Shown here piece after piece: positions 659-63,847 of a DNA stretch of 64,000 bases (the stretch's first letter is position 1; each line of letters starts with the position of its first letter). This stretch comes from Macrotis lagotis. Lineage: Eukaryota > Chordata > Mammalia > Peramelemorphia > Peramelidae. Below the pieces are notes generated by a model. The model was not told the DNA's origin. It saw only the letters and a list, made by a program, of their open reading frames with translations, and searched no databases. The translations under genes were made by a program, and so were the position numbers. The stretch is taken from NCBI RefSeq assembly GCF_037893015.1, contig NC_133665.1, positions 99,371,637 to 99,435,636 of the forward strand. The letters are read 5' to 3'.

Positions 659-1670
659 CTAAGAGAGATTTCTATACCCAATTGAGTGTGTAGGCTATTC
701 CTTCTTTGAGCCAATTCTGATGAGAATAAGATTTATTCACTCATCCTCAGTTTCCTCTCTCTTCTATTGCACAGTAAAAGCTGTTTTCTTGCCTCTTTTA
801 TGTGAGACTAATTTATCTCATTTTACCTCCCCTTTCCTTTTTTCTAGGACATCCTTCTCTAACCCCTTAATTTTATTTTTTTAGATATCATTCCTTTATA
901 TTCCACTCACATCTTTTCAGTGTTATCTCCTCATGTAGGAATATAAACAGTTTGACAACATTAGGTCTTTTATGATTTCCCTTTCATGTTTACTTTTTTA
1001 TGCTTCTCTTTGGTCTTGTATTTGTAGATCAAATTTTCTGTTCAACTCTGGTCTTTTCATCAGGAAAGTTTGAAAGTCCCCTATTTCATCAAATGTGCAT
1101 CTTTGACCCTGAAAGAATATGTTTAATTTTGCTGGGTAGTTGACTCTTGGTTATAATCCAAATTCTTTTGCCTTCTGGAATATCATATCCCCAAACCTAT
1201 GATCCTGTAATATAGAATCTGCTGATTCTTGTGTTATTCTGACTGTGGCCCCATGATACTTGAATTGTTTCTTTCTGACTGCTTGCAACTATGTTCTTTA
1301 CCTGGGAGCTCTGGAATTTGGCTATAATATTCCTGCAAGTTTTAATTCTAGGATCTCTTTCAGGAGGTGACCAGTGGATTCTCTCAATTTCTGTTTTATC
1401 CTCTAGAATATCAGGGCAGTTTTTTTTTGATAATTTATTGAAAGTGATATCTAGGCCCTTTTTTTGATCTTGGGTTTCAGGTAGTCTAATAATTTTTAAA
1501 TGATCTCTTCTGTAGCTGTTTTCCAGGTCAGTTGTTTTTCCAAAGAGATAGTTTACATTGTCTTTTATTTATTTATTCTTTGAGTTTTTAAAGTATTTCT
1601 TGATTTCTCATAAAGTTCTTAGCTTTCATTTGCTGTATTTTAATTTTTAAGGAATTGACCAATTCTGTTT

Positions 1671-22884: not shown

Positions 22885-24655
22885 TTAATCTTGGTTTTTT
22901 CCTTCCCTTTTTCATTTACCCTTTTTTATGCAAATCTTGAGTCATGTATTTGGTGACTGAATTCTCTGTTCAGTTCTGGTCTTTGTGTCAGGAAATTCTG
23001 TAAGTCCTCTATTTCCTTGAACATCCATCTTTTCCCCTGACAGTATATGCTGAATTTTGCAGTGTAGTACATTCTGTGTTGTAATCCCAGAACCTTTGCT
23101 CTCCAATATGTGCTATTCCAGGTCTTCTGATCCTTCACTGTTGAGATTGTTAAGTCCTGTGTGAGTCTGATTGTATTTCCTTTGTATTTGAATTGTTTTC
23201 TGTTTGCTGCTTGCAAAATTCTCTCCTTTATTTGAGGGTTCTGGAATTTGGCTATTATGGCCCTTGGAGTTTTTATTCTGGGATCTCTTTCTGGAGGGGT
23301 TCTGTAGAGTCTTTCAATGGTTATATTGTTATCTTGTTCTAGTAGATTTGGACAATTTTCCATTATAATTTCCTGCAAAATGTTTCCCGGGTTCTTTTTT
23401 TGATCTAGTCTTTCTAGTAGTCCAATAATTTATGGATTGTCTTCCCTGGATCTAGTTTCCAGAGCATTCATTTTCTCTAAAAAATACTTTACATTTTCTT
23501 CAATTTTTCAGCCTTTTTATTTTGGTTGATGGAATCTTGTAGTCTCATAGATTTACTGGTTTCTATTTGTTTAAGTCTAATTTTTAGAATTTTATTTTCT
23601 TCAACTGCTTTCATGTTTCCTTTTTCAGTTGGTTATTTTTACTTTTAACAGAGTTGATTTCTTTGATCAATTTTTCATAATTTTCCTGCATGACTCTCAT
23701 ATATTTTTTCCATTTTTTCTTCTTCCTCTCTTCTTTGGTTTTTAAATTCTTATTTTAAGCTCTTCAATGAGTATTTGTATTTGAATCCAATTTATGGACT
23801 GGTTTTGATACTTCTCCTGTGAGTGATTTTTCACTGATTTCTTCTTCAGACATATATCTGAAGAAGAAAATTGTCTGTAATTTTCTATAGTGAGTGCTTT
23901 TTTAGCTTTTCTGTTCATCTTCATTGTTTTAGCTCTTCTCCTGGGGTATGGGAAGTATAGATCCAAGCTTTTTTTCCCCCTTGGGGCTGATCCCAAGCTT
24001 GTCACTGGCCAAGATGTTGCCTATGTAATCCAGGACTTGCTTTTGTAGAGTTTTGTTTCCTGTATGTCCAGGTTCTAAATTAGCCATGGTTTGTTCCTGA
24101 CCCAGTCCTGCCTTTTATCCTGGTGTTTTTAGGGTTCAGACTTTGTTTGGGTTTGGGATCCTCCCTCCTGGCTTGCTATCTAGCTTCTGTGACCTCTGCT
24201 GTTAAGCTCTCAGGACCTGGATTGCACTTGACAGTTTGGTCAGTCTTTGGCCAGAGTTGGAAAGGGAACAACTTGGGGATGACTCACTCCCTTCCAAGCC
24301 CATGCTCTTAGTACACAGGTTAAGGTAGAGGTGGAGAATGGGATCCTTTTCACACCATCCTTCTCCCAGATAGTCTTCATACTCTTCTCCATCATTGTGT
24401 CTACTGTCCTGATCAAGCCTCCTTCTAACTTTCCATGCTCTACCACCTCCTGGACTTTATGTCCCCTTTTCCGCCAAAGAGACAGACCTTCACTGAGGAT
24501 ACTCCATGATGTTTACCATTGAGAACTTCTTTAAATCTTTTCTTTTTCTTGGTGGGATCTGTAGCTTGAATGTCAGAAGAGAAGTTTCATTTATCTTTGG
24601 TAGGGAAAAGCTCTGGGAGCATGTTATCTTCATGCCACCATCTTGGCTCCATCCT
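22885..24655 (-). mobile_element. L1 5' segment with the best-preserved ORF1
   Basis: Minus orientation; 5' end near 24.65 kb (GCCACCATCTTGGCTCC). ORF1 runs from about 24.0 to 22.93 kb. A 150-codon open stretch (22926-23378) holds the RNA-binding core: ERLYRTPPERDPRIKTPRAI, then IAKFQNPQIKERILQAANR, then KGNTIRLTQDLT, diagnostic of the L1 ORF1p RRM/CTD. The upstream coiled-coil part is broken. It lies within duplication copy 1 only. Confidence 0.8.
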
Positions 24656-28012: not shown

Positions 28013-28018
28013 TTTATT
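28013..28018 (-). terminator. Poly(A) signal AATAAA after exon 4c
   Basis: On the minus strand GGAATAAAGG lies about 290 nt beyond the distal in-frame stop of exon 4c. The equivalent site in the duplicated locus (61292-61297) is also AATAAA in a matching context. Retention of the hexamer in both copies supports a genuine 3' end for the locus. Confidence 0.6.
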
Positions 28019-28420
28019 CCTTTCCTGTCTACTTGGATGCTGCAGTAAAGGGCTCCCAGTTCCCTGCCCTTGGACCCTTCACTTCCAGTCTCTTCTCTTG
28101 ATTCTTGAACTTCTTGTTGCATTTGGTCCCTATTTCTACATTTCCTACTACTCCTGGATCTGTGGGTTCAAATCTTGAAAGTCACTAAAGAAACAGGTTT
28201 AGGGGGCCTAGACTAAGGATGGAATTCTAGATATGAGACAGGAATCTAAATGGAGAGCTTAGCCAAAGTAAAATCCAGATGTGGGGAAGTCATGTCTGGT
28301 CTTGGGTCAGAAATAATCAGGGTCAGGTAGTGGTGTAGGATTTTCAGGACTAGGTCTATGGTCAGGGAATTGTCCAGGCCCAGGCTGGGGAAATCTTTCT
28401 CCCCTTCCTCCTCTACCTTG

Positions 28421-28600
28421 GCCACCGGGACCTCGGCCACCGGGACCTCAGCCACCTCTACCTCGGCCACCTCTACCTCGGCCACCTCTACCTCGGCCAC
28501 CTCTACCTCGGCCACCTCTACCTCGGCCACCTCTACCTCGGCCACCTGGACCTCGGCCACCGGGACCTCGGCCACCGGGACCTCGGCCACCTCTACCTCG
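28421..28600 (-). repeat. 15-bp coding minisatellite (RGRGG/RGPGG), 12 units
   Basis: Twelve consecutive 15-bp units of the form CGAGGTAGAGGTGGC or CGAGGTCCCGGTGGC (minus strand), with very little variation: six adjacent units are identical. The unit length is a multiple of three, so gains and losses preserve frame. It lies wholly inside exon 4c. One unit carries CGA to TGA, which ends the reading frame. Confidence 0.92.
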
Positions 28601-28681
28601 GCCGCTGCGGCCTTGGCCGACACCACCAGGACGGTGGGCTGGAAATGTCTCAGCATCTGAAATTTCCTGGGCTTCAACATC
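28448..28681 (-). CDS. Exon 4c: terminal exon encoding an RGRGG-repeat peptide
   Basis: Follows a strong acceptor (TTTCTTTCTCCCACAG) in phase 0. It reads DVEAQEISDAETFPAH, then RPGGVGQGRSG, then ten five-residue repeats: one RGRGG, three RGPGG and six RGRGG, ending at TGA (77 codons plus stop). The same frame continues past this TGA as RGPGG-type sequence and a Pro-rich tail (ERFPQPGPGQFPDH...) to a second stop at 28307, so an ancestral product may have been 124 residues. Without the stop the Pro-rich tail would align with the one in exon 4d. With exons 1, 2 and 3c the precursor is about 179 residues. Arginine-glycine repeats make it extremely cationic and unstructured. A poly(A) signal follows at 28013. 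Confidence 0.55.
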   Translation of the reverse strand, partial: DVEAQEISDAETFPAHRPGGVGQGRSGRGRGGRGPGGRGPGGRGPGGRGRGGRGRGGRGRGGRGRGGRGRGGRGRGG

Positions 28682-29407
28682 CTGTGGGAGAAAGAAATAT
28701 TCATATAGTGATTACATATTCATGAAGGCAAAAAGGCTTCCCAGGTTTGCAAATATGTAGGACTATTAGGATGTCTTGGAGAACTTGCTGGGATTCCTGA
28801 GCAGTATCAATGTATGACTGGGGCCAACCCTAGTATACTGAATATCCAGGGCTCTCCTTAGTCATAGACAGAACAGGTAAGTTCTCTAAACTTAGGGGTA
28901 TAATTTCAGGAAGGTTTCCCTTCAATTATCTCTCTTGCCTTAAAAATTCTTCCTGATCTTAGAGTTTTGGGGGTACATTCTCAACTCTATAATAAGAGTT
29001 GAGGTTAGCAATGTCAATGACAGGTAAAGGAAATCAAAATCACAGAGAAAGAGTTGATTGAATTTAAAATCCAAGTCCTTCAAGGAAAGCATCAGCATAA
29101 AATGCCCATAGTCAGGGAGGACTCAAAGAGAGCACCTGAGGAAGAACAGCTAGCTCTAGTATAGTCAAGAAGAGGGGAGGAGAAAGGCTCCAACTTACAG
29201 GAAGAAATCCTCTGGTCTATCAAGGACAAGTAGAAGCCTTCACTATTTTTAACTAAACAAGGAATTTTAACACCTTTTCTATATCAGGAAGATCCTAGAT
29301 CTTTTTTTTTTTCCTCCCCAGAAAGGGGTCTGATTGCAGGACACCAGATGGGAATTTCCAGAAGAGAAGGATGAGTTGGGGAGGGGAGGGGATTTTTGTG
29401 GGCTTAC

Positions 29408-29446
29408 TTTCTTTTTTTGGTTTCCCCTTCCTTTGAGGGGAAAGGC
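29408..29446 (-). CDS. Exon 3c: short phase-0 exon, cassette c
   Basis: A 39-nt exon reading AFPLKGRGNQKKK in phase 0, with acceptor GGCCAG and donor AAA|GTAAGC, which joins exon 4c in frame. It is the sister of exon 3b 1.46 kb away, with the same length, frame and splice-site positions. It is Lys-rich at its end, so it could contribute a dibasic processing site before the exon 4c peptide. The upstream pyrimidine tract is weaker than in 3b. Confidence 0.5.
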
Positions 29447-29832
29447 CTGGCCTTAAAGGCAGAATAGGGAATATTAATGAAATAGGATTTTAAACTGTGC
29501 CATCCCTTATCAGAATCCCTTCCCTTCTGCTTATCTAGGATAGATTATTCATTGTCTCCACTTTGTTTTTGCTATAGTAAAAATTCATTACACAGAATCT
29601 CAGTTTTGGACAGGACCAGAGAAGTGTCCCCACAGTTCCAGGGATGGAGAGCTCACTGCTTCCTGGATTATCTCCTTCTGCTTTTGGGGGACTACTCCTC
29701 CTGATTTTTTCCTCTTATTTTTTCTGGTGTCTAAAAGTTGCTTTTGGAATCTTGGAGCCAGGTTGAAAAGGGTCCAGGAAAGAAGGGTCCAGGCCCAGAC
29801 CAATGCCAGGGGAAGAAAGACCAAGGCCATGG

Positions 29833-29997
29833 TCAGTAGGACCTATGTATAGGATAGGGTAGAATGTTATCTGATGGTTTCCTCTCTACCTCACGTCCTT
29901 CATGCCTTCTTCCTCTTCTGCTACTGCCACGGCCATTGTTCCCATAGCCATGTGCTGGTGATATCTCAGTATCTAACTCCTTCTGGTTTTCATCAAC
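29833..29997 (-). CDS. Exon 4b: Gly/Arg-rich C-terminal peptide, cassette b
   Basis: Follows an acceptor TTCTTTCTTCTACAG. In phase 0 it encodes 54 residues: VDENQKELDTEISPAHGYG, then NNGRGSSRRGRRHEGRE, then VERKPSDNILPYPIHRSY and stop TGA. With exons 1, 2 and 3b the precursor would be 156 residues, in the size range of cathelicidins. The segment GRGSSRRGRR is strongly basic and is the likely active peptide. As in 4a, an in-phase GAG|GTAGAG donor-like site after residue 36 could make it a 108-nt symmetric internal exon. I see no AATAAA close downstream, which favours internal use or decay over a free-standing terminal exon. Confidence 0.5.
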   Translation of the reverse strand, partial: VDENQKELDTEISPAHGYGNNGRGSSRRGRRHEGREVERKPSDNILPYPIHRSY

Positions 29998-30868
29998 CTG
30001 TAGAAGAAAGAAGTACAGAAACAGTGGTTGAGACTTCATGAAGGCAGAAAACTCCAAGTATGCAGATATGTAGGAGTATTGGATATCATAGGCCTTTGCT
30101 GGGATTCCTGGGCAGTATCAGTGTATGGCTGGGGCCAGGTCTAGCGTCCTGGATATCCAGTACTCTCCTTACTCATAGGCAGAACAGGTAAATTCTCTAG
30201 ATTTAGGCGGTATAATTTCAGGAAGGTTTCCCCCCAAATACCTCCTGCCCCATAAAATTTCACCCTGATCTTAAGAGTTTCAGGGGGTATATTCATGTGT
30301 CTCTAGTAGAGCTCAGGTTAGCAATGTTAATGACAGGGAAAGAAAACCAAAATCACAGTGAGTAGAAAGACTGAGAGCAGACTTTTTTGATGAGAGTAGG
30401 ATTTTATATACTTGGATATGCTTGTTGAATGAATGAGAGGATTAGGGGAAGGAGTGAGAATCTGGGATTTAAAGACAAGGGAGGGATCAAGGGAGGGATC
30501 CTAGGAAGTAGTGAAAATGACCCAGAAAGAGTTGATTGGGTTTGTAATCCAAGCTCTTTAAGGGAAGCATCAGCATGAAAGCCTGTAGTCAGGAAGGACC
30601 TCAGGTGAACAATTGAAGCAGAGCAGCCAGCTCTAGAACAATCAAGAAGAAAGGAGGAGAAAGTATCCAATTATCAGCCAAGGACAATTGGAAGCCTTCA
30701 GTATCTACAACTGAACAAGGAATTTCAGCACTTATTCTATACCAGGAAAGTCCTAGATGGTTTTCTTTCCTTCCCAGAAAGGGACAGTGTCATAGGACCC
30801 TGGATGGGAATTCCCAGAAGAATAGAATAATTCGTTTGAAGGGGAGGGGCTGCTTTTTGTTGGCTTAC

Positions 30869-30907
30869 CTGTCTTTTTTGATCTCCCCTTCCTTTGAAGG
30901 GGAAGAC
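30869..30907 (-). CDS. Exon 3b: short phase-0 exon, cassette b
   Basis: A 39-nt exon between a GCCAG acceptor with a pyrimidine-rich lead (CTCCTCTTCTGCC) and a strong CAG|GTAAGC donor. It reads VFPFKGRGDQKRQ in phase 0 and joins 4b in frame. Cassette c has a near-identical equivalent (AFPLKGRGNQKKK). Preservation of length, frame and both splice sites in two copies argues that it is a real exon. It would take the place of cathelicidin exon 3, but it is shorter (13 against about 24 residues) and lacks the two cysteines expected there. Confidence 0.5.
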
Positions 30908-31321
30908 CTGGCCTCAAGCAAAGGCAGAAGAGGAGATATTTATGAGATGGATTTAAAAAATGTGCTATCCCCTCACTGCACACCTTCCCTTCTGTTTACT
31001 TAGATCAAAGTATTCATTTTTCTACTTCCCCTCATCCCCCCTTTTGTTTTTGATATAGTGAAAATTTATTATACATAATTATTATACATAATTTCAGTGT
31101 TATACATAATCTACAGCTGGAGGGGGCAGGGCTCATGTTTCCTGAAGTCTCCCCCTGCTTTTTTGGCTATTGTTCCTGATTTTTCACCTTTGACTTTTCC
31201 TGGTGCCTTAAGCTGTTTTGGAATCTTCTACCCATTGCCCAGGGTAGGGTCAAGGTTAATCAAGATCAGACTGGGGTCCAGGGAAATTAGAGACAGGCTG
31301 TGACCAGGGGCATTGCAAGGA

Positions 31322-31522
31322 CTAAAGGTCCAGGCCCAGAACAATGCAGAGGGGAAAACTGTCTAGACCAAGGTCATGGTCAGTAGGGCCTATGCATGGA
31401 TAGGGTGGAAAGTTATCTGATGGTTTCCTCTCTACCTCACGTCTTCCTCGTCTTCCTCCTCTGCCACCGTCACGTCCATGGGCTGGTGATATCTTAACAT
31501 CTAACCCTTTATGGTCTTCAAA
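31322..31522 (-). CDS. Exon 4a: Gly/Arg-rich C-terminal peptide, cassette a
   Basis: Follows a good acceptor (TTCTTTCTCCCACAG). In phase 0 it reads FEDHKGLDVKISPAH, then GRDGGRGGRRGRRE, then VERKPSDNFPPYP and about 24 further residues to a TAG, 66 residues in all. The stretch ISPAH followed by a cationic Gly/Arg run is shared with 4b, and PAH is shared with 4c, suggesting a spacer plus mature peptide. An in-phase GAG|GTAGAG donor-like site at 31435/31436 would turn it into an 87-nt symmetric internal exon; 4b has the same site. Its nearest AATAAA on this strand lies around 31070. Whether it is a terminal exon, an internal exon or a relic is not resolved. Confidence 0.48.
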   Translation of the reverse strand, partial: FEDHKGLDVKISPAHGRDGGRGGRRGRREVERKPSDNFPPYPCIGPTDHDLGLDSFPLCIVLGLDL

Positions 31523-32423
31523 CTGTGGGAGAAAGAAGTACAGAAACAATAGTTAATTCTTCATGAAGGTAGAATACCTCCAAGTATGCAGATTCTTAGG
31601 ACTAATAGTATATCATGGAGATTTTTTTGGAATTTCTGAGTGGTACCAGTGTATGGCTGAGGACAGATCCATTGGTCTGGATATCTGGGGTTCTCCTCAT
31701 TCATTCACAGAACAGGTAAATTCTCCAGACTTAGGAGGTATAATTTCAGGAAGGCTTCCCCCTCCCCCATAAAATTTCCTCCTGATCTTAGGGGTTCTTT
31801 CAGGGAACACATTCTTTTTCTGATCTTGGGATTCTTTCAGGGGGCACACTCTTGAGTCTCAGTAGGAGCTCAGATTAGCAATACCAATGACAGGGAAAGA
31901 AAATCAAAGTCACAATAAGCAGATTGAAGACTCAGAGCAGACTTTTTGATGAGAGGAGGGTTTTATGTGCTTAGATATGCTTGTTGAATGAATGAGAGGA
32001 TTAGGGGAAGGAATGAGAATCTGGGGCTTGGTCTTAAGGGAAGGGTCCTAGGAAGCAGTGAAAATGACAGAGGAAAGAGTAGGTTAGATTTAAAATCCAA
32101 GTCCTCCAAGGAAAGCATCAACATGAAAGCCCATATCCAGGAAGGACCTCAGATGAGCAACTGAGGCAGAACAACAGCTCTAGGACAGTCAAGAAGAAAG
32201 GAGGAGAAAAGCTCCAGATGTCAGGAAGAATCAGCCAAGGACAAGTAAAAGCCTTCAGGATCTTCAGTTGAACAAGGAATTTCAGTACCTGTTCTATACC
32301 AAGAAGGTCCTAGATAACTTTCTTTACTCCCTTCTTTACTCCCTTGAAGAGACCTGATCACAGAACATTGGATCAGAGGAATAGGAGGATGAGTTCTGAG
32401 ATGGAGCTTTTTGTGGATGTAAC

Positions 32424-32462
32424 CTTTCTTTTTTGGTCTCAACTATTCTTGAGGAGGAAGTT
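32424..32462 (-). pseudogene. Decayed short exon of cassette a (exon 3a)
   Basis: This is the positional and sequence equivalent of short exons 3b and 3c, with the same C/T-rich acceptor context and a conserved CCAAAAAA core. In the phase used by 3b and 3c it contains a TGA after seven codons, and its donor has drifted to GGTTAC. It is therefore probably skipped, so that exon 2 could join exon 4a directly; both are phase 0. A five-base-longer acceptor choice (to 32467) stays open but changes phase and does not join 4a in frame. Confidence 0.45.
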
Positions 32463-32986
32463 CTGACCTTAAGCACAGGCAGTACAGATAAAATAGACAA
32501 ACACTTAAGAGATGGGATTTCAACAATCCCCCACTAAACAGATTCTCTTCCCTTTTGTTCACCAAGGTCAGATTATTGCCACCCCCTTTTGTTCTGAAGT
32601 GATACTTCCTTACACAGAATTTCAGTGTTGGATGGAACCAGAAAATTATACTACAACTCCAGGGATGGGGAACTCATTGCTTCCTGAAACCTCCTCCTCT
32701 GTTTTCTGGGCTACTGTCTAAAGCTGGTTCTTAGAATCTTCAACTCATTACTTCTATTTTTGACTGTAGAACAAAGTAAAAGAAACTCAGCCCTTTTTTC
32801 TGTGTGATAGAACTTCAGGGAGTCATGGAAACATATCCTTGGAACTTAGAGCTGCATACTCTTCCCCAAGACTCCTTCCTAATCTCAGGTAAGGAAGTTC
32901 TTTGAGAAAAAGGGGAAAGTGGATAGGTCCAGTTCAAGGTCACATTCTTCATTTATATCTAGTAGCATCTGGTTTGAAAAACTCAC

Positions 32987-33067
32987 CGGTAAATCTTGTA
33001 AGTCACAAAGGGGTCCAAACACCACACCACCATTGTGGAAAGGAATCTTTCCCCTGCAGAATTTCAC
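32987..33067 (-). CDS. Candidate exon 2 of the cathelicidin-like gene
   Basis: An 81-nt open stretch, phase 0 at both ends, follows a long polypyrimidine tract and an AAAAG acceptor and ends at a strong donor (CCG|GTGAGT). It reads VKFCRGKIPF, then HNGGVVFGPLCDLQDLP: 27 residues with two cysteines 16 residues apart, ending four residues after CDL. In cathelicidins exon 2 (about 36 residues) also has two cysteines and ends just after CDFK.DG, so the position and ending fit although the rest is divergent. The equivalent position in the duplicated locus (63.3 kb) is still recognisable but decayed. Confidence is limited by the short length and by weak sequence similarity to known cathelins. Confidence 0.42.
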
Positions 33068-33916
33068 CTTTTATAGCAACAAAGGAAAAAAAAAAAGGGT
33101 GATACCAGGCAGTAGTATTGCTGTTCTCTCAGAAGTCAGATGCTTCTGAATTTTTCCATTTGGTCTGCTGGTACATTTCCTTAGGCCTGATAGCTGTTTG
33201 GGTTATAAAATGTTTTCAGACTGAAATCTAGGAAGACTTATATGAACTGATCCTAGGGGAAGTAAGCAGGAAAAGGGGGAAAATATACACCAGGTCTCTA
33301 ACAATGGAAAGCAAATACTGAGTAATTCTAATGACCACACTTGACCAGACCCTACAAGAATGTCCTTCCTTCCCTTCTTAGCAACAGTGGAGAACAAAGG
33401 ACTTGGAATGAGGCTTAGACTGCCAGGTTTGGTGGAGTTGCTTAGTTTTGTTAATTCTGCTTTTTCCTTCTCTCTTATAAAGGATTGCACTCTAGATGGA
33501 GGATTGGGAAATAATATATTGGGAAATAAATGGGATGGAAGAACCAAAGAGGTCAATATAGTTTTTAAAAGAAAAAGAAAAATAACAACAAAATTCCATC
33601 TGATTCCCCTAGGGTGTCATGAGGTCTTTTTGAGGGTCTATTGACTTTCAGGCTTTGATATGGAGCTTGCTAGGGAGTGGGGCTATTTATGATGCTTCCT
33701 ATGATCTCTTTCTGCTCACCAGGATTGGGGCACTAGCGAGCACCAATCATCATCCTGTTTTCTCCTTTGTTAACAAGTATAGATGCACAATAATAATAAA
33801 TATAACTAATGACCATTACTATCAAATCTTTGCTAACATTATTTATTAATCATTAATTGCTTGAAACTAAATTGAGGCTTTTGGCAACCCTTTTCCAGTC
33901 CTTAATATCCCAATTG

Positions 33917-34150
33917 GGTGGAGCTAGGTGACATAACAGATAGAATGTTAGATCTGGTACAAGAAGATCTGAATTCAAATTCAGTCTCAGACACTAATGA
34001 GCTTTGTGACCCTGGGATAGTCACTTAGCCATTTAGCCTCAGGTTTTCTCATCTGCAAAATGAGGATAATCAGAGCACCTCCCTTTCAGGGTTGTTGTGA
34101 GGATGATATAATGTGAGAATTGTATAGTGTTGTAAATCTTAAATGGCAAA
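33917..34150 (+). repeat. MIR/Ther-type CORE-SINE in intron 1
   Basis: GGTGGAGCTAGGTGACATAA head, AATTCAAATTCAGTCTCAGA middle, TTGTTGTGAGGATGATATAA end. Confidence 0.75.
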
Positions 34151-34554
34151 GTGACTTAGCCATAGTCGTACTAGTAGAAAGTGAAAGAGGCAAGCTTCAA
34201 ATATAGAACCTCAGACTCCCAAACCTATGTTCTTTCCATTGCCTTAGGCTGCCCCAAAAGCTCATCAAAGGGAATCTGAGTTAACTGGATATGAGGATAT
34301 GAGAACCTGATTGGAAGGGACTGGGTGTCTAAGGGTCCAGGGAAATTCTGAGGGATTATTGGCAGTCCCAGTAATTTCTTCATTCCTTAGTGTAAATAAG
34401 GAGAATTTTACATTCCTTCTCTTCTCCACATTTTAAGTCCAGTGGATATGAATTCAGAAAAAGGAATCATGTGCAGCGAGGTGTAATGCCTTGCAGTAGA
34501 AAATGAAAAGTTAAAAATAAACAAAGCAAAACCTTCTTACTACAACTTTCAGGC

Positions 34555-34765
34555 TTTGATTGGCCTCCAATCCTGTCATGAAGGGCTCAGATTCTTTTGA
34601 GATCCAATTAAAGCCTCATCTTCTACAGTAAACCTTCCCTAACTTCTCTTAAATGCAGTGCTTTTCCTCTTTGTGTATATTTGTAGGCACATTGTCTCCC
34701 CCTTTAGATAGTAAGCATGACAAGGACTGGTAGTTGGTGGTGGTGTTGTTTTTGTCTCAGTATGA
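34555..34765 (+). repeat. L2 3'-end remnant
   Basis: CCTTCCCTAACTTCTCTTAA, GGCACATTGTCTCCCCCTTT and AGATAGTAAGCATGACAAGG fit the L2 3' UTR. Confidence 0.55.
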
Positions 34766-37123
34766 AGTGTTTCATTAATTATTGATTGATTATTTGAATA
34801 TGAACACCCCCAACAATTGACTTAGTGATTATGCTCTGAGTTCTTGTATTTGTTTTATCTATATATATTCATTATGTTTTGAGTCACTATATTTAACTGT
34901 TATATTCTGAGTTATTCTCAAACTCTTGATTAGATTTTAATCCCTGTATAACGGGCTGAGAAAAACAAGCAAATGTCACACTAGTACTGTTGCAGTGTAC
35001 AACAGTCCAATGAAGAGAGTTTTTTGATGTGGAGTCCATAACCCCTGCGGGGTTCCAACTGTACCTAGGATATTTATCAGTGATTGAACTTTGTTGAAGT
35101 CAGTTATTTCTGCTCTGGGACCCTTAGATTCCTCATCTATAGAATGGAAATAATTTTTTTTTAAATGGAGAGAATCCTGTTTGCACCACCTTCCTCATTG
35201 GTTTGTTGTGAAGAAATTGCTAAATCATTAAAATTATGGCTTCTATTTTCATAGCTGATGGGTTTCTTATTATATCATTTAAGATAGTCAGAGTCTAGAT
35301 CCTAGATTACTCACTGGCTCTGGGGAACCTGGTATTCTCATTGATCAGATTACATTTTAATAAGTTCCTTTTGAGGCTCTAGGAGCTAGAAATCTGACAT
35401 GGAAGGCAAAGTCGACCTTTCCTTTGCTATGTTCCCTTCAAAGTCTACTTTAGGAAGGGAAAAGGAAATATCAGATCCCATCCTTGGTCAGCACAATTGG
35501 TAGTAGCCTGTCTGCTTTCCCTTCCCAAAGTAGAAGGATTAATAAATTACCTTGATATCTACTCAAGCCTACATGGATGATTTGGCCTATTTGCAAGACT
35601 GGGCTAAAACTCCTGAATCCTTGGGTGTTGGCATTATTTTTTATTTGGGTTTGGGGGTAACCAGACCCAGCAAGGAATACTTACAGGAAGAGTTTTGCTT
35701 TCACACTGGTCAGGGTTCTGATTCTCTGACTTAAGGCACTTGGTTTCCTCAATGGAGATGCTCAGCAACCGGTTCCCAGACTAGGAGGGAGAGAATTGAA
35801 GGAAGCATCAAGGACAAAGGTGAGAGAAGTGAAGATGATTCTGGACAATGGGATATAGAGAAAGTTTGCCTTTGAAGACTTCCCTGGGATGCAGATCTTC
35901 CCCTCCACCCATTTTGCCCTCTCCCAGCTTCCAGGATCCAGTATTCAAACAATAAGACCTGGGTTTGAAATGCAGTTTTTCCACTTAATTCTTGTATAAG
36001 CGCTGTTCAGGCTTCTCCCCTCCTCCATTTAAGTCATTCATTGTCTAACAGTCCCCTGCTAGGAAATATGAAAATTCCTTAATTCCTCTACTGCAATGGG
36101 ACAACAGATGCCATTGAGCTAATATGTGACCTAGGTGTGTTTTAGCAGCAATTCCATGGAGACACTGACTCCACTAAAAAGAGTGATTCTAATGAAAACC
36201 ACAGTCAACACTGCCATAGGTTGTGGCTTCCACAAGCCCAACAAGTCACAGGGAAACATTTTGGGGGCAGGGATTTTTTTATTTAAATCTCATGTAGGTA
36301 GTCAAATACTCTGCCGATGGATAAGACCTGCCCCTGTGGACAGTGGTAGTCCAGGAACATTTTCCCTTCTCCCAGTATTTATTAGATTCTATTGTATTCC
36401 CAAACTACAATGATCTCTTTGGGGCTCTGGGCATTCTATTCTACTTTTCACAGTAATCCCCATTCTCTCTTTTGGTCAGACCCCACACCTTGTCACCCAT
36501 CATTCCCTTTGAAAAATTGATTGAAATAGATTGAAAACTAGATTCCCCACCTCATCCTCCAGTCCTTATGTGAAATCATGTTTCCTTTTGTCTTCCTAAA
36601 CACAACTCAAAGAGATTCAGGAAAACATGAAGAATAATATTGCATAATAGTAATGACCAATTTTGGCCTGGGAAAGGGGATGAGAAAATGCATTTCTCAT
36701 CTTTCACTGGAGAGGTAGAGGTACATAAATTTGCACACACTAGCAGATAAGACTGCCAGCAATTGGTTTTGTATAACTGTTTTCCCCTTACACTAGGCAG
36801 AGGTTGGAGAGGGATGAAGGAAATATTTCTCAGGAATTGCTGTCATGTAAAAATAAAGAAATAAATAAAACTTAAAAAAAAAACAACTGCAGTTGAAGCT
36901 AACTTCTCCCAGGAGGCTTTTCTAGGGGAGTACAGAACCACATTATTTAGCCCTAGTTCTGAGGCTTGGGGGGAAACCAAATGAATCCTCTTGAAAGGGT
37001 GCTCTGTAATGGCTTAGGAATGACTTTAAAGCACCTCTCAGGTGTGCATAGAAACTTTGACTTAGAGTCTATCCCCCAAAGTTCTTTGCTTGGGAAGATG
37101 GAGATAAGTGGGGAAGGGCTTAC

Positions 37124-37309
37124 CTGATCAGAGTGAGCTGTGGTTTTCACAATCTTGAAAAGGTAACTAATATCATTCCTTTGGTTGTAGCGATTCAGTA
37201 ATATGGTTGCAGCATCATCATCGCTCAATCTCTTCCTTTGCTGAGCAGAAAGGATTGCAATGGTCATGGCCACACAAAGTAGCAGAAGGCCTCTCTCCAG
37301 GCTCCCCAT
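37124..37309 (-). CDS. Exon 1 of a secreted cathelicidin-like precursor
   Basis: Encodes 62 residues from ATG at 37309 to a strong donor (CAG|GTAAGC), ending in phase 0. Residues 1-22 form a signal peptide: MGSLERG, a hydrophobic core, cleavage probably after LSA. Residues 23-62 contain LSDDDAATILLNRYNQRN followed by SYLFKIVK, which fits the cathelin-domain opening of cathelicidins and neutrophilic granule protein (AQ.LS...A....NQR...LYRLLEL). In those families exon 1 likewise encodes the signal plus about 37 cathelin residues in phase 0. A TATA-like element lies about 55 bp upstream. It is the only exon of this type seen in the window and feeds a 4 kb intron. Alternatives are another cystatin-superfamily secreted protein (chemerin- or latexin-like). 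Coding status is fairly secure; the family is an inference. Confidence 0.6.
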
Positions 37310-37360
37310 GTTTTCTCACCTTAGTTTGTTTCAAGTCTGTCTCTCTTTCAAAGATGCTCT

Positions 37361-37368
37361 TTTAAAAG
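37361..37368 (-). promoter_or_regulatory. TATA-like box upstream of exon 1
   Basis: Reading the minus strand, CTTTTAAAAG sits about 50-60 bp before the exon 1 ATG. That is suitable for a start site around 37330-37340 and a short 5' leader of roughly 25-30 nt. It follows a GC-richer CCCTCCCAGGG stretch. The placement fits a compact secretory gene promoter; no other elements are claimed. Confidence 0.4.
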
Positions 37369-60415: not shown

Positions 60416-60787
60416 AAATTTATTCCACTATTCCCCAATGGATGGGCATCTACTTGATTTTCAATTCTTTGGTAACACTAAAAGAGCTGCTGTGAATATT
60501 TTGGTGTGTGTGAGACTTTTCTTTCTCATTTTGACATCCTTAGTCACATATACCTTTATAGTGGGGTCACTGGGTCAAAGTTAATGGACATTTTGGTCAC
60601 TTCTTTAGCATAGTTACAAATGACTTTCCAGAATTTAGTGATAAACTTTCAGATTTTACAAGAAAACTTAGGTTTTACAAAATGAAAGCTCTCAAAGGTT
60701 AATTGACATGTCTAAGGTTGCACAAGGGCAGAGCTGATATAAGAATCCAGATCTTTTGATTCAAATTCAATCTCCATTTCTCCTATG

Positions 60788-61030
60788 GTGGACCAGTGGG
60801 TTGAATCCTTGGCCTTTGATTCTGGAAAGCATGTGTTTTAATCCAGCTTCAGAAACTTAACTAGCTGTGTGGTCCTAGACAAGTCACTTAACCTATTTGC
60901 CTTGGTTTCCTTAACTGTAAAATGGGTATAATGAAAGCCCCTATTTCCCTATAAGGATAAAATGAGATGATATTTGTAAAGTGCTTAGCATAGCACCTGG
61001 TCATGGGTAGGTCCTTTATAAAGGTTTGTT
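60788..61030 (+). repeat. MIR/Ther-type SINE, shared with 27.57 kb
   Basis: TAGCTGTGTGGTCCTAGACA, CCTTGGTTTCCTTAACTGTA and AAAGTGCTTAGCATAGCACC. Confidence 0.78.
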
Positions 61031-61042
61031 CTCTCCTTTCCT

Positions 61043-61047
61043 ATCAG

Positions 61048-61127
<80 letters not shown>

Positions 61128-61170
61128 CCCCTTTCCCTTTCCTCCCTCCCTCCCTCCTTCTCTCCCTCCC
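61043..61170 (+). repeat. (TC)n microsatellite
   Basis: Long CT run passing into TCCC units; equivalent of the 27.79 kb tract in copy 1. Confidence 0.92.
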
Positions 61171-61291
61171 CTCCTTCCTATGCCACAACAATTGATTTTC
61201 TGTGTGCTTAGAATAGATTGGACTCAGGAAGAGCCAGCAGACAAGAAGACCAGGTAAGAGCTTGTTAGAATGATATTGAAATCACAAAGTC

Positions 61292-61297
61292 TTTATT
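61292..61297 (-). terminator. Poly(A) signal AATAAA after exon 4d
   Basis: AATAAA (minus strand) about 260 nt past the exon 4d stop, at the position equivalent to the signal of the first locus. Flanks match as well (ATTCTAACAAGCTCTTAC against ATTCTAAAAAGCTCTTAC). Confidence 0.55.
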
Positions 61298-61556
61298 CAA
61301 AAGCTGTCATCTAGGATGCTGTGGTAAACGGTTAATAGTTCCTGCCCTTGGACCCTTCACAGTTTAGTCTCTTCTCTTATTTCTTGGATGTCTTACTGCA
61401 TTTCATCCCCATTCCTACATTTTCTGCTCCTCTAGCGTACATATGGAATTCTCAACCCAAGACAGGAATCTAAATGGGAGCACAGGCAAAGATGAGCATA
61501 GGTTAAAAGTCAGAGTCAGGGAGGTCAGACCCAGCCTGGGTCTAATTAGGATCAAG

Positions 61557-61691
61557 CTATGGTCTGGGGAAACTGGGGTCAGGCTGAGAGCTTGGGAAGG
61601 GTCCAGACCAAGACTGGGGGAGTCTTTCTTGTCTTCCTTCTCTGTCAGGGCAGGTGATATCCTCAGCATCTGACACATCCTGAGTTTGAAC
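61557..61691 (-). CDS. Exon 4d: terminal exon of the duplicated locus, Pro/Ser-rich peptide
   Basis: In phase 0 after a CCACGGTAG acceptor it encodes 44 residues: VQTQDVSDAEDITCPDREG, then RQERLPQSWSGPFPSSQ, then PDPSFPRP and stop TAG. VSDAEDI matches ISDAETF of exon 4c, and the ERLPQSWSGPFP tail aligns with ERFPQPGPGQFP beyond the RG repeat there. This copy never had, or has lost, the Gly/Arg array. The peptide would be Pro-rich and only weakly cationic. A SINE sits in the intron between 3d and 4d. A poly(A) signal follows at 61292. The locus could be a live paralogue or a pseudogene; the decayed exon-2 equivalent favours the latter. Confidence 0.42.
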   Translation of the reverse strand, partial: VQTQDVSDAEDITCPDREGRQERLPQSWSGPFPSSQPDPSFPRP

Positions 61692-61871
61692 CTACCGTGG
61701 CAGAAAGAAGCAACAAATAATGGTTAAGTCTTCATGAGGACAGAAGGCCACCAAGGAATGCTGTAGAACTATTAAGATGTCCTGGAGATCTTGCTGGAAT
61801 TCCCGAGCAGAATCAGTGTATGGCTGGGGCCAGATCTAGTATCCCGGATACCTAGGGCTCTCCTTACTCTT

Positions 61872-62022
61872 TTTTTTTTTTTTTTTGCAAGGCAATAGGG
61901 TTAAGTGGCTTGCCCAAGGCCACACGGCTAGGTAATTATTAAATGTCTGAGGTCGGATTTGAACTCAGGTACTCCTGACTCCAGGGCTGGTGCTCTATCC
62001 ACTGCGCCATCTAGCTGCCCCT
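61872..62022 (-). repeat. Marsupial SINE in the 3d-4d intron
   Basis: 15-bp target repeats GCTCTCCTTACTCTT at 61857-61871 and 62023-62037; absent from cassettes a-c, so it postdates the duplication. Confidence 0.93.
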
Positions 62023-62719
62023 GCTCTCCTTACTCTTAGGTAGAACAGAGGAATTCCTAGACTTAAGACACCAGGAAGGATTTCCCCTCAAATACTTGCC
62101 CTTAAAATATTCCTCCTGATCTTTGGAGTCTTGGGGTCCTTACAGGGGGTACATTCTTCAGTCTCCAACAGGAGCTCAGGTTAGCAATGCCAATGACAGA
62201 GAAAGGAAACCAAAAACCCAAATGAGAAGAAAGAGGACTGATAGCAGACTTTGCTAAGAGTGGTTTTTATATACTTGTTGAATAAGGGTTAGGGAAAGGA
62301 GTGAAAATCTGGGGCTTAAAGTCAAGGGAGGGTATCCTAGGACATTCTGAAAATCACCTGAAAGAGTAGAAAGGGTTTGCTATCCAAGTCCTTTAAGGGA
62401 AGCGTCAACATGGTGGCCTATAGCCAGGAAGGATCTTAGGGGAGCTCCTGAGGCAGAACAGTCAGCTCTAGAACAGTCAAGAAGAGAGGAGGAGAAAGGC
62501 TCCAGTTGTCAGCAAGAAGCCTCTGGTCAGCCAAGGACAATTCGAAAACTTCATTACCTTTAGCTCAACGAGGAATTTCAGTACCTATTCTATATCAGGA
62601 AGGAACTAGATGGCTTTCTTTACTCCTCCGATAGGAGGGATCTGATCACAGGACCCTAGATGGAAATTCCCAGAGGAACAGGAGGATGAGTTCAGAGTTG
62701 CAGATTTTTGTGGACTTAC

Positions 62720-62761
62720 TGCCTTTTTTGGTTTCACCTTACTTTGAGGGGGTGGCCTAGC
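62720..62761 (-). CDS. Exon 3d: short exon of the duplicated locus
   Basis: Matches short exons 3b and 3c in sequence and position, but is two bases shorter in the middle. Using acceptor CTTAAG|GC and a strong donor GCA|GTAAGT it is 42 nt, phase 0, reads ARPPPQSKVKPKKA, and joins exon 4d in frame. Using the acceptor equivalent to that of 3b and 3c it would run into a stop. Either the acceptor has moved or the exon is decaying. The upstream exon 1 of this copy lies outside the window. Confidence 0.38.
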
Positions 62762-63262
62762 CTTAAGCACGGGCAGAATAGACAAACACTTATGAGATGG
62801 GGTTTCAACAGGTCCCACTACCTAAGAGATCTCTTCTCTTCTGTTCACCTTGCACCTCTTCTTTTTTCTTGTAGTGAAAATTCATTACACTGAATCTCAG
62901 TGTTGGAAGGGGTCAGAGACATATTCTTCAGCAACAGGGATGGGGAACTCACTGCTTCCTGAAGCAAAAAATCTTCTGTCTTTTGGGGGGTTACTGTTCC
63001 TGGTGTCTAAAGCTGATTCTTAGAAACTTCACCTCATTACCTGGGACGAAGCAAAAGAAACTTAATCCCTTTTCTATGTGGTAGAACTTCAGGGAGTCAT
63101 AGGATGATATCCTAGGAATTTAGAGCTGCACATTCTTCCCAAGACTCCTTCCGGACCCTGTCAGGTAAAGAAGTTGTTTGGGATAAGAGGAAAGTGGAAA
63201 GATCAAGTTCAGGTCCATATTCATCCTTTATATCCAAAAGAACCTATTTTGAAAAACTCGCC

Positions 63263-63346
63263 AGTAAAGCCTTAGAGTCACAAACTATTCCAATCACTAC
63301 ACTTCCATCATAAAGGGAATCGATCCCATGTGTTCTCTCACCTCCT
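63263..63346 (-). pseudogene. Decayed exon-2 equivalent in the duplicated locus
   Basis: Aligns with the 33.0 kb exon 2 through ATTCC..TTT, TTTGTGACT and GGCGAGTTTTTC. The frame is broken by small length changes and in-frame stops, and the donor has become GC instead of GT. A TTTGTCTTTGTAG acceptor-like site precedes it. This is the main reason to suspect that the copy no longer makes the precursor. Confidence 0.4.
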
Positions 63347-63847
63347 ACAAAGACAAAGAACAAAATAAGGTGATACTTGAGGCAATAGTGTCTTTGCCCC
63401 CTCAGGAGTCAGATGCTCCTGACTTTTCCCATCTGGTCTCTTGGTATATTTTCTTAGACTGAATAGCTATTTGGGTTATAGAATTTACTTGGATTGATGC
63501 CTGGGAAGACACATGAACTCATCTGAAGGAAAGTAAGCAGGAAAAAGGGAAAATAAACACCAGGACTACAACAATGGAAAGAAAATGCTGAGTAAATCCT
63601 AAGGATGAAACTTGCCCAAACACTATATGAACTTTCTTCCCTTCATTGAAGTAAAGAACAACTAAGAATGTACAATGAAGACTGCCTTGACTGGTGGAGT
63701 TGTTTAGTTTTGCTAAATTCTGAAAAACTACACTTTTCCCCCTTTCTCTTATAAAAGAGTTGTTCTCTAAGTGGAGGATTGGGAAGGGATATATTGAGAA
63801 ACAAAGGAGATATAAGAATAAAAGACATTTTTTCAAAGAAGAAGATA

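Follow-up and report, generated by a model that had tools for sequence, protein, structure and literature searches.

How many peptide exons a single cathelicidin-type gene can carry, and how they would be joined to one another, is the question raised by a gene in the 64,000-nucleotide window analysed here (C8:99371637-99435636 of Macrotis lagotis, the greater bilby; exon and feature coordinates below are positions within this window). The gene lies on the minus strand and has six candidate coding exons, namely cathelin exons 1-3 followed by three copies of exon 4, here called cassettes 1, 2 and 3 (W1, W2 and W3). Its paralogues are denoted N1 to N4, with N3a and N3b for the inner and the last cassette of N3. 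The reading towards which we lean, with modest confidence, is that of an NGP-like gene whose exons 1-2-3-4a-4b-4c are joined in series to give one multi-peptide precursor of 263 aa, so that the tail cassettes would be spliced serially behind one signal peptide and one cathelin domain.

The strongest pointer to serial inclusion is the RefSeq model of the paralogue N3, LOC141494905. The database query consisted of N3 exons 1-3 joined directly to the last N3 cassette, the inner cassette being left out, and the RefSeq protein that was returned includes the inner cassette N3a, which ends GAG/GTAGAG (the slash marking the exon end) and is joined in phase 0. This model is a splice of N3 genomic DNA, identical across all 230 residues, and uses the donor GTAGAGAGA. 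RefSeq models often draw on RNA-seq. In the window gene, GTAGAGAGG lies at the same place in both inner cassettes. Because the N3 model joins both cassettes and the same donor is found in the window gene, serial inclusion is favoured over mutually exclusive splicing, and would be carried over from the paralogue to the window gene. The first-pass annotation had proposed that several peptides could be obtained by alternative splicing; this may happen, yet the best evidence, the N3 model, is for serial joining.

All six exons of the window gene have a length that is a multiple of three, are in phase 0 and keep open frames; the five introns start, in order, with GTAAGC, GTAAGT, GTGAGT, GTAGAG and GTAGAG, and all of them end in AG. 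Exon 1 (37124..37309; 62 codons, phase 0, donor GTAAGC) encodes the signal peptide and the start of the cathelin domain, and is 60% identical to that of N3 over residues 1-65; as a signal-peptide exon it had already been drawn correctly in the first-pass annotation. About 50 bases 5' of the ATG lies a TATA-like TTTTAAAA (37360..37367), a putative promoter element; TTTAAA/TTAAAA/TATAAA-like runs also precede exon 1 in N1, N2, N3 and N4. The exon at 35685..35780 (SGNRLLSISIEETKCLKSENQNPDQCESKTLP; 32 codons, phase 0, acceptor TCCTAG, donor GTAAGT), which carries ETKC-x10-C, is the true cathelin exon 2. The two-cysteine exon at 32987..33067 (VKFC...CDLQDLP) had been taken for exon 2; its 27 codons and phase 0 stand, but it is exon 3, and its acceptor is shifted 3 bases downstream (TATAAAAG versus TATAG/CATAG in N3 and N4).

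The first-pass description of three tandem units was likewise confirmed; their Gly/Arg-rich exons start at 31522, 29997 and 28681. Exon 4a (cassette 1, 31436..31522) has 29 codons, made of an acidic spacer and a Gly/Arg part ending RGRRE, and exon 4b (cassette 2, 29890..29997) has 36 codons and ends RGRRHEGRE; both run into GAG/GTAGAG. Exon 4c (cassette 3, 28448..28681) has 77 codons and a TGA, and combines an acidic spacer with a long Gly/Arg repeat, where a 15-base tandem repeat (28410..28603, 12.9 copies) encodes Gly/Arg(Pro) pentamers. Its in-frame TGA at 28450-28448 comes 46 codons ahead of the old stop at 28309-28307, and the stretch past it (28307..28447), in frame to that old stop, is the relic of a Pro-rich C-terminal tail that resembles the coding tail of N3b. 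The full transcript presumably takes its poly(A) signal from an AATAAA at 28013..28018, where aligned N1 has AATAAA and N3 TATAAA. This far signal had been thought to be the only one, whereas a second AATAAA lies 3' of cassette 1 (31065..31070); at the aligned place the other six copies read AATGAA (three), GATGAA, AAGGAA and AATAGA (one each). The region of the 15-base repeat (28249-28719, minus strand) also holds a 157-codon stop-to-stop frame rich in Ala, Glu and Val, which overlaps cassette 3 in another frame, and on the opposite strand Pro/Arg-rich and Leu/Gly-rich frames are open too.

Membership of the cathelicidin family rests on exon 2. Exons 1+2+3 with cassette 1 read to its stop match PF00666 at 26.4 bits (cut-off 21), and the N3 protein reaches 35.6 bits. 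Exons 1+3 alone, the pair numbered 1 and 2 in the first-pass annotation and proposed there for this profile, gave no cathelicidin profile match at E up to 1. The first-pass idea of a cathelicidin-like marsupial gene was nevertheless right. The closest PDB match of exons 1-3 with cassette 1 is 4eyc (E 6e-4), a cathelicidin that we take to be the human one. The four cathelin cysteines are present, with a spacing of 10-9-16 in the window gene and of 10-10-16 in N3 and in 4eyc (the latter counted on the alignment); one residue went with the moved exon 3 acceptor. The cathelicidin cysteine motif is printed as CX10-CX5-CX16-C in the available text of Peel et al. 2025 (PMC12006171), and PS00946 and PS00947, as given there, match neither the window protein nor that of LOC141494905; in both, the ETxCx10C core alone matches. 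A classical cathelicidin has four exons with one mature peptide in exon 4, and here six candidate coding exons with three exon 4 copies are seen. Since PF00666 is passed and the strict PROSITE signatures fail, the gene is, as judged from sequence, cathelicidin-family and NGP-like, and not a classical cathelicidin. The predicted structure of LOC141494905, from an alignment of 3 sequences, is too weak to lean on (mean predicted local distance difference test, pLDDT, 55; predicted template-modelling score, pTM, 0.36); in this low-confidence prediction a signal helix is followed by one helix and four strands, which may be taken as cathelin-like, and by an unstructured tail. A scan with NCBIfam, a prokaryote library, matched neither of the two proteins.

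The position of the gene agrees with this assignment. In the genome searched (3.656 Gb, 607 contigs), all six cathelicidin-profile matches are on C8, four of them at 97.99-98.03 Mb and two at 99.53-99.58 Mb; two of the four CDC25-family matches are at C8:98.30 Mb, the remaining two being on C1. The window gene sits at C8 99.40 Mb, and by a protein search of the genome its gene family spans 99.40-99.50 Mb. These positions fit the marsupial layout of a cluster A and a cluster B set out in the available text of PMC12006171, and the window gene is a member of the second cathelicidin cluster, cluster B, which in that layout shares a chromosome with cluster A and CDC25A at a cluster gap of 1.2-1.6 Mb. 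The same protein search gave 16 matches, of which the window gene, N3, N4 and cluster A account for 3 each, and N1 and N2 for 2 each. Exon 1 belongs to the same family as the paralogues, and not to a different conserved gene, a case that the first-pass annotation had named as refuting its proposal.

As to where the cassettes come from, parts of the three tandem units align at 70-77% identity across 0.3-1.0 kb. Cassette DNA compared with the 3.66 Gb genome gave 12 matches, and all 12 fall inside C8:99.400-99.496 Mb; no copy was found outside cluster B in this search, which scored the best candidates only and skipped very common words. A dispersed-repeat origin, another case that the first-pass annotation had named as fatal to its proposal, is therefore unsupported among these candidates. 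Whole-gene duplication and assembly error were likewise rejected as sources, as the DNA between the cassettes showed no additional exons 1-3 and the unit introns are about 25% different; the earlier claim that the peptide exon was copied, and not the whole gene, holds. In the intron tree of 7 units the best-supported nodes have 84.7/53 and 82.6/59, too low to order the duplications. Because W1, W2 and N3a share inner-type exon ends, one duplication may have preceded the split of the window gene and N3, with a second one in the window gene.

What lies past the donors of the inner cassettes suggests how a last exon could become an internal one. The Dromiciops gliroides protein cathelicidin-3-like (P0003) codes through the donor place, with DVEREPSDTFP against EVERKPSDNFP in W1 (8 of 11 identical, E 0.001 as a single comparison), and the comparison of P0003 with W2 gives 6 of 8 (E 0.044). 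Because P0003 reads through the matching place, the sequence 3' of the inner-cassette donors is probably a former coding tail. Past the donor of cassette 1 the frame VERKPSDNFP... (31324..31435) is open for 37 codons and resembles this Dromiciops coding sequence; it may be read as an intronised old tail, or as coding where cassette 1 serves as last exon. An in-frame stop comes 5 codons past the donor in N3a, 18 in W2 and 37 in W1, and in pairwise comparisons of W1, W2 and N3a, which are not independent, indels in multiples of 3 make up 6 of 6 inside the cassettes versus 5 of 16 within 200 bases past the donor. With these decaying frames and this indel pattern, the history can be read as a tandem duplication followed by intronisation of the tail: the terminal exon and part of the preceding intron would have been duplicated to form the cassettes, and the upstream copies would have lost their C-terminal tail to the intron through the GAG/GTAGAG donor within the old exon. 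The short exons that had been placed in the tandem units (at 30907 and 29446) must be given up, with an in-frame stop in five of the seven homologous copies (W1, N1, N3a, N3b and N4) and an open frame in W2 and W3 only. The stretch around them is readily alignable across the seven intron copies, including those of N1, N3 and N4, without keeping the open frame, and is possibly a regulatory or splicing element.

The predicted serial product of 263 residues has three modules, each opening with an acidic spacer (net charge -1, -4 and -5) behind which comes a Gly/Arg-rich stretch (+4, +4 and +19). The inner modules end in RGRRE (W1), RGRRHEGRE (W2) and RQRRHE (N3a), and R-X-R/K-R occurs in the final 10 residues of all three with a shuffle chance of 0.006, for a window size picked after seeing the sequences. 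Perhaps cleavage after R-X-R-R separates the modules and releases the peptides individually, and the released pieces may be antimicrobial or immunomodulatory. A wider proposal can be made only tentatively: in the bilby, and perhaps also in other bandicoots and bilbies, a cathelicidin-family gene may have become a modular polyprotein gene, with tandem exon 4 copies, intronised tails and phase 0 throughout, delivering one, two or three Gly/Arg peptides per transcript through exon inclusion or skipping.

The frames themselves have been kept. The introns of the window gene and N3 are 22-26% different and hold 90 indels over 5045 aligned bases; exons 1-3 show 0 indels in 366 bp (P 0.0015 against the intron indel rate). 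In a neutral simulation of N3 exons 1-3 plus N3a (20000 runs), all frames survive with a frequency of 0.003 at half the distance between the window gene and N3, and of 0.00005 at the full distance. The ratio of non-synonymous to synonymous substitution rates (dN/dS) is 0.56 (0.31-0.93) against N4. Coding frames have thus been kept beyond chance, under a constraint that is weak by dN/dS.

Several observations weigh against serial inclusion in the window gene. Against N3, dN/dS is 0.65 with a bootstrap range of 0.37-1.22. RefSeq drew its serial model for the paralogue, the window gene being read from genomic DNA. The GAG/GTAGAG donor is weak, with 5 of 9 consensus bases, and its conservation as a run, with a longest invariant run of at least 11, is not beyond chance (P 0.12); the exon 3 acceptor is weak as well. 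Cassette 1 stays open past its donor for the 37 codons given above, as expected of a last exon, cassette 3 has its early TGA, and the inner cassettes are low in net charge (+3 and 0). Protein database searches, one of which scored the 8000 best candidates only, returned no record for the window gene itself.

A serious rival, although we hold it to be unlikely, is that the window gene is a recent pseudogene, serial splicing being ancestral, still working in N3 and failing here. The loss of the ancestral exon 3 AG and its replacement 3 bases on, the early TGA, the missing protein record, a dN/dS against N3 that is not clearly below 1 and the broken state of the cluster neighbours N1, N2 and N4 would all agree with this; yet none of the six exons has lost its open frame, the simulation speaks against long neutral drift, and the TGA still leaves a cationic module of 77 residues. 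About as doubtful are alternative last exons, where exon 3 would join a single cassette in any given transcript and translation would end at the stop of that cassette. One promoter would then yield several single-peptide precursors, and such splicing could coexist with the serial kind. Every cassette starts in phase 0 after an AG, which makes in-frame joining from exon 3 possible, and beyond their donors cassettes 1 and 2 remain open for 37 and 18 codons, with a second AATAAA 3' of cassette 1. Moreover, the predicted Dromiciops isoforms X1 and X2 are identical for 123 residues and then diverge, and two splice variants are given for tammar MaeuCath1 in the available text of PMC6408724. However, no AATAAA or ATTAAA lies between window cassettes 2 and 3, nor between the N3 cassettes, where AGTAAA only is seen; the AATAAA of cassette 1 is absent from the aligned copies, N3a stops 5 codons past its donor, and the N3 RefSeq model joins both cassettes. 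That this is an ordinary four-exon NGP-like gene using cassette 3 (or one cassette), with the others as inert intronic leftovers, is quite improbable, for even though terminal cassettes have a tail and poly(A) region in common, N1 and N4 have one cassette each and the donor run is no better conserved than chance allows, W1, W2 and N3a retain frame, acceptor and donor despite about 27% divergence, their indels are multiples of 3 in 6 of 6 cases (in non-independent pairs) versus 21 of 90 in introns, and the RefSeq model includes N3a.

Around the window gene, the other members of the family are in different states. N3 (minus strand, coding span C8:99467565-99475683) is intact, lies 66 kb from the window gene and has two exon 4 copies, compared with three in the window gene and one each in N1 and N4; none was found for N2. 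In N1 and N2, both on the minus strand, exon 1 is broken, and the 5.7 kb copies that contain their exons 1-2 (C8:99437543-99443245 and 99453978-99459675) are 98.3% identical, an identity that points to a gene already broken when it was recently duplicated. N4 (plus strand) has a stop within the exon 3 open frame and another at the start of exon 4. The 3' half of N1 falls within the window (60691-63825, minus strand) with remnants of exon 3 and of a single exon 4, whose acceptor place reads CACGG and which carries a one-base insertion relative to the other copies. Two further open frames in the window (22929-23429 and 1200-1568, minus strand) are presumably LINE-1 ORF1 remnants.

In comparison with what is described, the available text of PMC12006171, which covers nine bilby genes, gives marsupial NGP-like cluster B genes four exons and one antimicrobial domain, and has marsupial cathelicidins diversify through whole-gene copying; the word stem 'splic' is absent from its main text. 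The window gene resembles those genes in its cathelin exons, cysteine core, cationic C-terminus and location in the second of two clusters that are about 1.4 Mb apart, and differs from them, as there described, in its triplicated exon 4. Among the top-ranked results for the open-licence literature, supplements excluded, no description of a cathelicidin whose exon 4 is repeated in tandem was recognised, and the available portions of PMC7063992, PMC10874372, PMC11711154 and PMC5536018 name no such gene. The tammar wallaby MaeuCath1, a marsupial cathelicidin as well, is differentially spliced through lactation, and the accessible part of PMC6408724 mentions no tandem peptide exons for it. At the bilby locus, two linked genes have multiplied nothing but their peptide exon, and intronisation of the tail offers a plausible way for a terminal exon to become internal. 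If expressed, the product would be a vertebrate cathelicidin-family polyprotein, and such genes may be miscounted or labelled partial where annotation presumes four exons; if the modular-polyprotein proposal is true, cassette number would be a fast way to arrive at new sets of peptides.

We know of no apidaecin-type precursor with a cathelin domain. The apidaecin-type antimicrobial peptide polyproteins of bees and wasps hold several peptides per precursor with separators such as RREAEPEAEP, as given in the available text of PMC11549390. These separators, RR followed by an acidic spacer, invite comparison with RGRRE-VDENQKELDTE in the window gene, purely as an analogy. Nearer relatives are found among marsupials. 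Dromiciops P0003 has the same cathelin type and an Arg-rich C-terminus, but a single cassette, read through at the donor place, as known from the protein alone. The Dromiciops isoforms X1 and X2 (P0006 and P0005) have the same cathelin type and predicted last parts that differ, and probably come from one gene; the last part of X1 is hydrophobic, unlike the cationic tails, as if it came from a downstream 3'-region acceptor or from another frame. LOC141494905, finally, named 'uncharacterized protein', shares with the window gene the cathelin exons and tandem Gly/Arg cassettes joined serially at the same donor, and differs from it in having two cassettes and an intact Pro-rich tail.

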